From contig CAJYAD010000001.1 of NCBI GenBank assembly GCA_913064775.1, positions 1 through 64,000 on the forward strand: a stretch of DNA of 64,000 nt, given 5' to 3'. Source of the stretch: an uncultured Albidovulum sp. Lineage in GTDB: Bacteria; Pseudomonadota; Alphaproteobacteria; Rhodobacterales; Rhodobacteraceae. The first letter of the stretch is position 1. The number at the start of each line of letters is the position of its first letter. This document shows positions 13,871 through 37,098 of the stretch, piece after piece. The position numbers and the translations under genes are program-made. The notes under the pieces are model-generated. The model made no database searches and had not been told where the DNA came from. It saw nothing but the letters and a program-made list of their open reading frames with translations.

Positions 13871-13920
13871 TTTCTTTCTGGTGGAAATATCCCGGGGGCG
13901 CAGGGGGCAGAGCCCCCGCC
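13871..13920 (+). repeat. Dispersed hairpin repeat, copy 1
   Basis: TTTCTTTCTGGTGGAAATAT is followed by CCCGGGGG and a hairpin GGGGGC-AGA-GCCCCC. The same arrangement recurs at 21850-21899, 25011-25059, 42758-42810 and 53748-53800, with looser copies at 37031-37098 and 45071-45116. It lies after the DUF1223 gene and before the rplU promoter, so it may end the upstream transcript. Confidence 0.75.
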
Positions 13921-25059: not shown

Positions 25060-25087
25060 ACCGAGCCGCAACAGCCCTGCCATGAAA

Positions 25088-25175
25088 ATGAAAAAGCGGC
25101 GGTGCCAGGGAGGAGGAGAGGCACCGCCGCGAGATACGATCGACCCAGGGAGGAGGAGAGGGTCTTTCGTAATCG
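25088..25175 (-). ncRNA. CcsR-like small RNA, unit 4 (last transcribed)
   Basis: Two hairpins share the same loop, read on the plus strand as AGGGAGGAGGAGA, so the RNA loop is UCUCCUCCUCCCU, an anti-Shine-Dalgarno-type sequence. Hairpin 25136-25170 has a GACCC/GGGTC stem extended by ACGA/TCGT. Hairpin 25096-25130 has an 11-base stem GCGGCGGTGCC/GGCACCGCCGC and is followed on the minus strand by TTTTT, which ends the array. CcsR RNAs of R. sphaeroides have this two-hairpin CCUCCUCCC design and are processed from a ccaF1 co-transcript; the ends given are approximate. Confidence 0.85.
25090..25130 (-). terminator. Terminator of the ccaF1-CcsR transcript
   Basis: The second hairpin of CcsR unit 4 (25096-25130) is followed on the minus strand by TTTTT (25095-25091), then CATTTTC. 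The hairpin thus doubles as a Rho-independent terminator for the whole array. Confidence 0.8.
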
Positions 25176-25199
25176 TTCAGGACCCGATGGATCCCGTAT

Positions 25200-25285
25200 G
25201 AGGGTGCGGCGATGCCAGGGAGGAGGAGAGGCATCGCCGCGAGATACGATCGGCCCAGGGAGGAGGAGAGGGCCTTTCGTAAACC
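25200..25285 (-). ncRNA. CcsR-like small RNA, unit 3
   Basis: It has the same two-hairpin design. Hairpin 25246-25280 pairs GGCCC with GGGCC, where units 2 and 4 have GACCC/GGGTC. Hairpin 25206-25240 pairs GCGGCGATGCC with GGCATCGCCGC, where units 2 and 4 have GGTGCC/GGCACC. Both sides change together while the AGGGAGGAGGAGA loop stays fixed, which is strong evidence for conserved RNA structure. Ends are approximate. Confidence 0.85.
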
Positions 25286-25309
25286 GTTCAGGATCCGAAG
25301 ATCCCGTAT

Positions 25310-25395
25310 GAAGGTGCGGCGGTGCCAGGGAGGAGGAGAGGCACCGCCGCGAGATACGATCGACCCAGGGAGGAGGAGAGGGTCTTTCGTAACTG
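25310..25395 (-). ncRNA. CcsR-like small RNA, unit 2
   Basis: Hairpin 25356-25390 (ACGA-GACCC/GGGTC-TCGT) and hairpin 25316-25350 (GCGGCGGTGCC/GGCACCGCCGC) both present the fixed CCUCCUCCC loop. It is nearly identical to unit 4, suggesting recent tandem duplication. GGATC-CGAA-GATCC (25290-25304) lies between this unit and unit 3 and may be a processing spacer. Ends are approximate. Confidence 0.85.
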
Positions 25396-25431
25396 ACAGG
25401 GCGGGCGCTTTCGGGCGCGGGCCCCGGGAAG

Positions 25432-25515
25432 AAAGATGCGGCGGCATCAGGGAGGAGGAGAGATGCCGCCGCGAGATCTGGAAGGCTCAGGGAGGAGGAG
25501 AGAGCCTTCCAAGGA
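25432..25515 (-). ncRNA. CcsR-like small RNA, unit 1 (first transcribed)
   Basis: Hairpin 25480-25510 (GGAAGGCTC/GAGCCTTCC) and hairpin 25438-25472 (GCGGCGGCATC/GATGCCGCCGC) both carry the AGGGAGGAGGAGA loop. Its stem sequences differ most from the other units while the structure is kept. It starts only a few bases after the DUF1127 stop codon (25522), so it would be cut from the same transcript. Ends are approximate. Confidence 0.85.
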
Positions 25516-25521
25516 ACCTCA

Positions 25522-25740
25522 TTAAACTTTGTTTGCTGCCTCCAGCGCGATCCGCTTGATCATCGAACGGTGCAGGCCCAGGTCCGCGAGGTCGCGGTCG
25601 CTCAGCGCACGCAGTTCGGTCAGCGTGGTGCGGTAGATCCGGCGGCGCTCCAGCGCGGCGCCGAGTTGGGATTTCAGAAGGCCCAGCCGCCCGTTACGGG
25701 CGTTGCCGGCCACATGGGTCATGCTCAGACTTGCCATCAT
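25522..25740 (-). CDS. ccaF1: DUF1127 small arginine-rich protein, CcaF1-like
   Basis: A 72-residue basic protein. The N-terminal 30 residues are unremarkable; the C-terminal DUF1127 domain reads RRIYRTTLTELRALSDRDLA and continues LGLHRSMIKRIALEAA. In R. sphaeroides the equivalent protein (CcaF1) lies directly upstream of four CcsR sRNAs, is an RNA-binding protein and is made under RpoHI/RpoHII control. The same layout is seen here. The ATG at 25740 is followed at once by a second ATG at 25737; either could be used. It is transcribed from the promoter at 25776-25803. Confidence 0.88.
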   Translation of the reverse strand: MMASLSMTHVAGNARNGRLGLLKSQLGAALERRRIYRTTLTELRALSDRDLADLGLHRSMIKRIALEAANKV

Positions 25741-25775: not shown

Positions 25776-25803
25776 AAAATAGGGGCTCGCTGCGGATGCA
25801 CAA
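25776..25803 (-). promoter_or_regulatory. Candidate RpoH-type promoter of ccaF1-CcsR
   Basis: On the minus strand TTGTGC (25803-25798) is followed after 16 bases by TATTTT (25781-25776), preceded by CCCC. The CCCCTATTTT form resembles heat-shock-sigma -10 elements of Rhodobacter. It lies about 35 bases before the start codon. Promoter class is inferred from the known regulation of the R. sphaeroides locus. Confidence 0.55.
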
Positions 25804-25977
25804 TCCCGCCGTTGCGAAATGCTGCCATGCAGCAAGTGCATAACTGTTGCTGACCTATTTGGCGCCAACTTTTCTGCGCTCTTGCGTATTTTCGCGCCAC
25901 TTTGGGGATGCGACCCTTGCCCTCGCGGCAAAACAAGACATGGTATGCGCTGCTTGGAATGTGAAAGGAAGCCAGTC

Positions 25978-37030: not shown

Positions 37031-37098
37031 CGGGGGCTCAGCCCCCAGCCGCCACTACCGGGTCGCGCCGCGCCCTTCATCTTGGTCAAAATACTCCA
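37031..37098 (+). repeat. Dispersed hairpin repeat, divergent copy
   Basis: GGGGGCTCAGCCCCC (hairpin, 37032-37046) is followed some 30 bases later by CTTCATCTTGGTCAAAATAC-TCC, the AT core found in the other copies. Here the two parts are further apart. It lies between the histidine kinase and murD. Confidence 0.55.

Follow-up and report, generated by a model that had tools for sequence, protein, structure and literature searches.

In Rhodobacter (Cereibacter) sphaeroides, the gene ccaF1 is cotranscribed with the small RNAs (sRNAs) CcsR1-4 from an RpoHI/RpoHII promoter, and its product, CcaF1, binds RNA and participates with RNase E in CcsR maturation (PMC10253847). The sRNAs are cut by RNase E and degraded by PNPase (PMC7866481), and the flhR mRNA is one of their targets (PMC8307010); accounts of the function, maturation, and promoter of this locus are given in PMC10253847, PMC8625941, PMC7866481, and PMC8307010. 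The association of DUF1127 genes with CcsR sRNAs has been named CIN1 (PMC10253847), and the "cuckoo" motif is described as 2 to 4 hairpins whose loop is conserved and whose helices are not (PMC4504443). In Sinorhizobium meliloti, the same CCUCCUCCC loops serve as redundant seeds with which the sRNA NfeR1 silences ntrB (PMC10746234).

A second group of studies concerns LysR-type regulators. In Sinorhizobium, LsrB has NfeR1 and AbcR1 among its targets, and the LsrB site of S. meliloti nfeR1, TGCA-N6-GCAT, is placed at about -72 (PMC10746234). In Brucella, DUF1127 genes are targets of VtlR, for which a motif is quoted (PMC12595884). LsrB was called unique to the Rhizobiales in a 2025 study whose tree included R. 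sphaeroides (PMC11975290), and VtlR has been called conserved in the class Alphaproteobacteria (PMC7486931).

The locus analyzed here lies in a 64,000-nucleotide stretch of DNA from an uncultured Albidovulum sp. (the window). Its sRNA array has an arrangement known in the Rhodobacteraceae, and the box upstream resembles a switch described in root-nodule and related bacteria.

RESULTS

Four CcsR units follow a ccaF1 homologue.

The whole array and the gene in front of it are on the minus strand. A DUF1127 gene is followed, after a gap of 4 nt, by four in-register repeats (25080-25514, from a repeat comparison within the window). In the predicted fold, each unit forms two hairpins, and all eight carry the loop UCUCCUCCUCCCU (exact 13 nt, minus strand; TCTCCTCCTCCCT). 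The features are as follows, in 5' to 3' order on the minus strand.

25522..25740, minus strand: ccaF1 homologue, 72 amino acids, DUF1127 (PF06568, E = 7.6e-12)
25433..25517, minus strand: CcsR unit 1, divergent, two hairpins (RF02791, 67.2 bits, gathering cutoff 65.3; fold)
25311..25393, minus strand: CcsR unit 2 (RF02791, 53 bits, E = 6.4e-12, below gathering; fold)
25285..25310, minus strand: unit 2/3 spacer with a small hairpin (C-UUCG-G loop), perhaps a processing region (fold; candidate function)
25201..25284, minus strand: CcsR unit 3 (RF02791, 55.2 bits, E = 1.4e-12, below gathering; fold)
25175..25200, minus strand: unit 3/4 spacer with a small hairpin, perhaps a processing region (fold; candidate function)
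25091..25174, minus strand: CcsR unit 4 (RF02791, 54.3 bits, E = 2.6e-12, below gathering; fold)
25091..25130, minus strand: likely intrinsic terminator, formed by the final unit 4 hairpin and the adjoining UUUUUCAUUUU (sequence reading)

Judged by its sequence, this is a ccaF1-CcsR1-4 ("cuckoo RNA," CIN1) locus, carried, as its relatives indicate, by a member of the Rhodobacteraceae sensu lato. We assign it this identity because unit 1 matches the Rfam model RF02791 (CcsR1) above the gathering cutoff and units 2 to 4 match it at E values of about 1e-12, because the sRNAs immediately follow a short DUF1127 gene that has the same orientation, because all eight CCUCCUCCC hairpin loops are frozen between stems that vary yet pair, and because 154 of 198 Rhodobacteraceae genomes match RF02791 at E ≤ 1e-4, against 0 of 14 control genomes. 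The sub-gathering scores of units 2 to 4 count against the assignment. With R. sphaeroides, the locus shares a DUF1127 gene (72 amino acids here, 71 there) followed by four homologous sRNAs, as well as the RF02791 match (unit 1, with two CCUCCUCCC-loop hairpins) and the terminal hairpin. It differs in that units 2 to 4, which miss the Rfam cutoff, are closer to one another than to unit 1. Compared with the cuckoo RNA/CIN1 motif (Reinkensmeier and Giegerich 2015), for which 2 to 4 hairpins are quoted in the accessible text, there are eight hairpins in four units here and up to 14 in relatives. The ccaF1 homologue's product is 90% identical to a protein of Allgaiera indica, the nearest named relative found, in which six hairpins (three units) stand behind the gene.

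In the alignment, unit 1 is the odd one out. With the units numbered along the transcript, units 2 and 4 are identical at 80 of 84 columns and units 2 and 3 at 78 of 84, and units 2 to 4 are recent duplicates. The initial annotation had been right to propose CcsR-like sRNAs behind a DUF1127 gene, with two same-loop hairpins per unit and near-identical units 2 and 4, and the stem sequences that it quoted agree with the DNA. With UUUUUCAUUUU immediately after its last hairpin, the array plausibly carries a terminator of its own at the end; a terminator scan, which is blind to loops longer than 8 nt, listed a weak site within unit 1 (25448-25435).

The best explanation of the locus, and in our view very probably the correct one, is that a single stress-induced transcript is cut into CcsR sRNAs with anti-Shine-Dalgarno (anti-SD) seed loops. 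We infer that this transcript would start about 28 nt before the DUF1127 gene, run through the four units, and end at the last hairpin. On the model of R. sphaeroides, RNase E, aided by CcaF1, would cut it into CcsR sRNAs that PNPase would degrade. The eight identical, single-stranded UCUCCUCCUCCCU loops would act as redundant seeds for purine-rich (G/A) SD sites, and under stress their pairing would lower translation of genes for metabolism and uptake.

Stems covary around a frozen loop.

Each unit folds far more stably than its shuffled versions (z = -6.9, -7.3, -7.2, and -8.5, with 0 of 200 shuffles as good for each unit), as does the full array (z = -11.4, with 0 of 100 as good). We compared the arms of the hairpins across 68 DUF1127 loci, namely, the window locus and 67 relatives picked by protein alone. 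With the exact 13-nt loop as the sole criterion, 266 hairpins were found in 62 of the 68 loci, with 163 distinct arm pairs. Among these distinct pairs, arm positions 2 to 8 paired at frequencies of 0.83 to 0.99, against 0.43 to 0.59 for permuted arms, and position 1 was the exception (0.90 against 0.85); Ruegeria species account for many of the 67 relatives, and the rows behind these statistics are not independent. A fixed-register set of every CCTCCTCCC (456 places, any loop length) gave 0.59 to 0.75 against 0.41 to 0.52, with position 1 again the exception (0.75 against 0.71). Across relatives, then, the loop is frozen, and the stems carry little sequence information yet pair.

This covariation across relatives is decisive in indicating selection for the hairpin structure. 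The initial annotation had taken the eight hairpins as "direct evidence of selection for structure"; the selection stands, and it is the relatives that reveal it. The eight hairpins alone make that wording too strong, because units 2 to 4 are recent duplicates and covariation inside the array rests on few independent changes. The near-identity of units 2 and 4 could also mean that the array is a chance repeat, a functionless leftover of recent duplication. The conservation of the loop, the covarying stems across relatives, and the fold z-scores speak against such a leftover, which we regard as hardly credible.

The sRNA family is widespread in the Rhodobacteraceae.

The sRNA part of the locus is a further member of an already known family and is ordinary in kind, a clean addition to a family in which the anti-SD loop is sharply kept while the stems drift. 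Cuckoo-type hairpins were present in 67 of the 68 DUF1127 loci, with 2 to 14 per locus and 459 in all. The RF02791 gathering cutoff was reached in just 10 of the 198 Rhodobacteraceae genomes. A class-wide RF02791 scan, run with strict filters that probably miss distant cuckoo RNAs, matched 9 of 289 genomes, four of them Rhodobacteraceae. No further cuckoo copies were found in the window's own genome, where the next RF02791 matches after the four units had E values of at least 0.27, in a range (E ≤ 10) where 12 of the 14 control genomes matched as well.

One metagenome-assembled genome named Rhodovulum sp. (locus L050) has the DUF1127 gene and a VtlR-like site (3 mismatches) with zero cuckoo hairpins, its array having been lost or never gained. 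Plasmid-borne DUF1127 genes of Rhizobium, Agrobacterium, and Paracoccus (L490, L491, L492, L489, and L476) are followed by 3 to 5 CCTCCTCC places (in L476, by 13 overlapping ones). Two of these plasmids, those of L490 and L491, are classed as conjugative, which puts loci of this type on mobile replicons too.

Some candidate target sites of the loop lie at start codons.

The eight array loops are the sole copies of the exact loop 13-mer in the 4.38-Mb assembly (105 contigs searched). A perfect 13-nt target site outside the array is likewise absent from the assembly, which counts against the seed-loop explanation, and one-mismatch sites number 3; long perfect duplexes are therefore not expected. 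With up to 2 mismatches, the 13-mer complement occurs 83 times, or 75 times once the loops are set aside. The reversed pattern occurs 42 times, two of them inside the array, and the surplus may reflect just SD usage. The 9-mer complement has no genome-wide excess (CCTCCTCCC, 35 places with the eight loops included, against 28 reversed).

Of the 75 loop-complementary sites outside the array (≤2 mismatches), 25 lie 1 to 14 nt 5' of an ATG that opens a reading frame of at least 80 codons, and 7% of random positions pass the same ATG and open-frame test. The term "anti-Shine-Dalgarno loop" in the initial annotation fits these counts, but any SD-like motif would score so, and the start-codon bias is what such a motif would be expected to produce.

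We compared the genes behind GGAGGAG sites with those behind AAGGAG sites. Transporter binding proteins made up 12 of 71 GGAGGAG-site genes and 3 of 79 AAGGAG-site controls (P = 0.0075, one-sided; P = 0.012, two-sided), a post hoc and weak contrast in that the hypothesis arose on an overlapping gene list before it was tested. The twelve solute-binding proteins were confirmed one by one; the three of the control are SBP_bac_5 (two) and SBP_bac_11 (one), counted from the top 25 families and so at least 3. Two E1 dehydrogenase subunits (L312 and L322) are also among the GGAGGAG-site genes. The GGAGGAG set came from 92 places after exclusion of open reading frames (ORFs) shorter than 60 amino acids, overlapping duplicates, the array's own match, and C51:187-202. 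The control was a nonrandom draw of 70 of 236 AAGGAG places (contigs C1 to C10) plus 22 TAAGGAG places, minus short ORFs, duplicates, and sites also holding GGAGGAG. The upstream frame was examined for a minority of the genes in these sets, so some starts are internal. Canonical TAAGGAGGTGATC was dropped as a control SD pattern, its matches being mostly coding-like. The binding-protein bias parallels the transporter-rich predicted regulon of NfeR1, as given in the accessible text of PMC10746234.

If SD sites had coadapted genome-wide to the arrays, the ratio of GGAGGAG to AAGGAG start sites should differ with array content. This prediction failed: the medians were 0.355 in 80 array-bearing genomes (the first in list order of the 154) and 0.319 in 44 array-less genomes (P = 0.30), where "array-less" means no RF02791 match at E ≤ 1e-4 under stricter filters and 24 of the 44 are inferred rather than named. 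The result weighs against the seed-loop explanation. It favors an alternative in which the loops serve as decoys of the 16S rRNA anti-SD end, affecting ribosomes in general and not pairing with chosen mRNAs. The CCUCC inside the loop and the 25 of 75 sites at start codons could likewise be read this way. We consider a decoy improbable, given that the loop is kept well beyond CCUCC and that, in the post hoc comparison above, GGAGGAG genes differ in kind from AAGGAG genes.

The initial annotation had suggested titration of an SD-containing mRNA or an RNA-binding protein, for which we found no support; the accessible R. sphaeroides and S. meliloti work describes flhR and ntrB mRNA targets (PMC8307010, PMC10746234). 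In its fullest form this idea holds that the loops chiefly soak up CcaF1, Hfq, or a single SD-containing mRNA, with mRNA pairing secondary. Such a sponge would suit the multiplicity of the hairpins (2 to 14 per locus in 67 of 68), the frozen loops with free stems, and an operon that itself encodes an RNA-binding protein (PMC10253847). It sits poorly with the targeting of flhR by CcsR1-4 and with NfeR1, which loses ntrB silencing when all three loops are mutated (PMC10746234), and an anti-SD sequence is not obviously required by a protein sponge. We judge it about as doubtful as the decoy.

A conserved LysR-type box precedes ccaF1.

The new element of the locus, and one less expected than the sRNA array, is a conserved LysR-type box before ccaF1. 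Box and core-promoter-like block span 25842-25776 (minus strand) and are near-invariant upstream of ccaF1. The features, again 5' to 3' on the minus strand, are as follows.

25816..25842, minus strand: LysR-type box TATGCACTTGCTGCATGGCAGCATTTC (sequence; alignment of relatives)
25840-25827, minus strand: LsrB-like TGCA-N6-GCAT (published LsrB pattern)
25831-25817, minus strand: VtlR-like TGCATGGCAGCATTT (2 mismatches to the VtlR motif)
25798..25803, minus strand: -35-like TTGTGC, 37 nt after the box start (36 to 37 nt in relatives)
25776..25781, minus strand: -10-like TATTTT, spacer 16 (relatives mostly TATYTT or CATNTT)

Aligned upstream regions of 63 loci have the conserved block YATGCA-nTTGC-TGCAT-RGC-R-GCATTG. 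TTGTGC starts 37 nt after the start of the first TGCA in 47 of the 63 loci and 36 nt after it in 15, and it is missing from L024. When the best-matching hexamer over spacers of 13 to 20 was taken, one resembling TATYTT or CATNTT stood 16 to 17 nt after TTGTGC in 59 of 62 loci. In the window, TGCA-N6-GCAT stands upstream of a core-promoter-like element. From the start of the box to the end of the -10-like hexamer is 65 nt, which would place the box at about -72 from the expected start.

The LsrB site occurs in 63 of the 68 loci; among 912 control windows (420 nt each) drawn from other parts of these loci, 2 contain it. The VtlR motif (≤3 mismatches) occurs in 61 of 68, against 1 of 912. Both are present in 57 of 68; the two motifs overlap, so these counts are not independent. 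Five of the 68 loci have no VtlR-like site even at ≤4 mismatches, and a strict box pattern, used before the published motifs, was found in 46. Among 29 loci found through the RNA model, which may overlap the 68 and of which L106 was read over 111 nt only, 21 have the LsrB site and 25 the VtlR motif, against 0.2 expected from shuffles. The Agrobacterium VtlR consensus GCAT-N3-TG-N3-T is missed by one mismatch, A for T (GCAT-GGC-AG-CAT-T here); across the 63 loci this central T position holds A in 57%, G in 30%, and T in 8%.

The -35/-10-like block is conserved in relatives. A sigma-70 scan of the locus listed no promoter, and a strict RpoH pattern (CTTG...CYATNT) had no match in 66 upstream regions, a few of which (e.g., L012) were poorly positioned; both results count against the reading of the locus as a stress transcript of the R. 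sphaeroides kind.

The box also occurs elsewhere. Within 0.83 Mb of own-genome sequence (overlaps included, pieces selected for other reasons), the only other full box precedes another DUF1127 gene (L248, contig C6, about 2390-2700, + strand of the locus), and no CCTCCTCC loops follow in the roughly 500 nt inspected behind that box. In 1.38 Mb of the same genome, scanned on both strands in overlapping pieces, the VtlR motif alone (≤3 mismatches) was found at 22 places, three of which are the array promoter itself, and the LsrB pattern alone at 33. The VtlR motif alone is unspecific, and only the full box is rare.

A tblastn search of plasmids with CcaF1 returned no match. The promoter DNA, searched against 7.3 billion bases of plasmids, gave one match spanning most of the query, in Paracoccus jeotgali (E = 9, weak alone); it is found 118 nt upstream of a DUF1127 gene that is itself followed by CCTCCTCC loops. 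Among 16 plasmid DUF1127 loci, hand-picked by protein to span genera from 30 listed of 186 records, the box scored above all 60 shuffles in 8 (four of the 8 from Rhizobiales), and it did so also in the P. jeotgali locus. In the other 8, including those of R. leguminosarum and A. vitis, both of which have loops behind the DUF1127 gene, it did not exceed all the shuffles.

An LsrB/VtlR-class regulator may read the box.

We infer that the most likely reader of the box is an LsrB/VtlR-class LysR activator acting alongside a stress sigma factor. By analogy with VtlR, which targets DUF1127 genes in Brucella, and with LsrB, which targets NfeR1 and AbcR1 in Sinorhizobium, the simplest reading is that a regulator of this class would also control ccaF1-CcsR here. 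With the LsrB-activated NfeR1 (alpha-r14), the locus shares the CCUCCUCCC loops and a TGCA-N6-GCAT box starting at about -72; NfeR1 differs in having three hairpins in one sRNA, a sigma-70 promoter, an NtrC site, and an identified regulator. With the VtlR regulon of Brucella and Agrobacterium (DUF1127 genes, AbcR2/AbcR1), it shares a DUF1127 gene behind a TGCATGGCTGCATTG-like box (2 mismatches here). It differs in the replacement of the central T by A or G in most of the 63 loci and in its cuckoo array, which goes unmentioned in the accessible portions of the VtlR literature.

Alternatively, the box might be read by another LysR-type protein or by a non-LysR factor and not by an LsrB/VtlR orthologue. 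This is a real, if somewhat less than even, possibility. The description of LsrB as unique to the Rhizobiales, from a tree that includes R. sphaeroides (PMC11975290), would accord with a different reader, as would the altered central T. The half-sites, their order, and their approximate distance from the expected start nonetheless match the nfeR1 LsrB site (PMC10746234), VtlR targets in Brucella include DUF1127 genes (PMC12595884), and VtlR is described as conserved in the class (PMC7486931).

Returning to the LsrB/VtlR-class activator, we see an even prospect that one LysR-type regulon extends across at least two orders of Alphaproteobacteria. In such a regulon, this activator would drive DUF1127 proteins and CCUCCUCCC-loop sRNAs, and in the Rhodobacteraceae it would read the 25-bp box upstream of ccaF1-CcsR and of at least one more DUF1127 gene, atop a stress-sigma promoter. 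If so, one anti-SD sRNA array would integrate redox or nutrient state with heat or oxidative stress, and either the Rhizobiales-only claim for LsrB would be wrong or a different LysR protein would have kept LsrB's box. In the literature searched, we found no link between CcsR and a LysR regulator, or between VtlR/LsrB and DUF1127 genes of Rhodobacter; a mention in Billenkamp 2015, Reinkensmeier and Giegerich 2015, or Gruetzner 2021 is possible. The box would join two literatures, that on CcsR/CcaF1 in Rhodobacter (RpoHI/RpoHII) and that on LsrB/VtlR with AbcR/NfeR1 and DUF1127 in the Rhizobiales, and it makes testable which factor reads it in bacteria said to be without LsrB.

A palindromic repeat recurs in the window.

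The palindrome GGGGGCTYTGCCCCC recurs at positions 13903, 21853, 25042, and 42762 of the window and, with one mismatch, at 37032 and 54030. On both strands, 11 matches are listed, against 1.04 expected from shuffles. One copy lies just downstream of the array, and the palindrome resembles an extragenic or terminator-like repeat.
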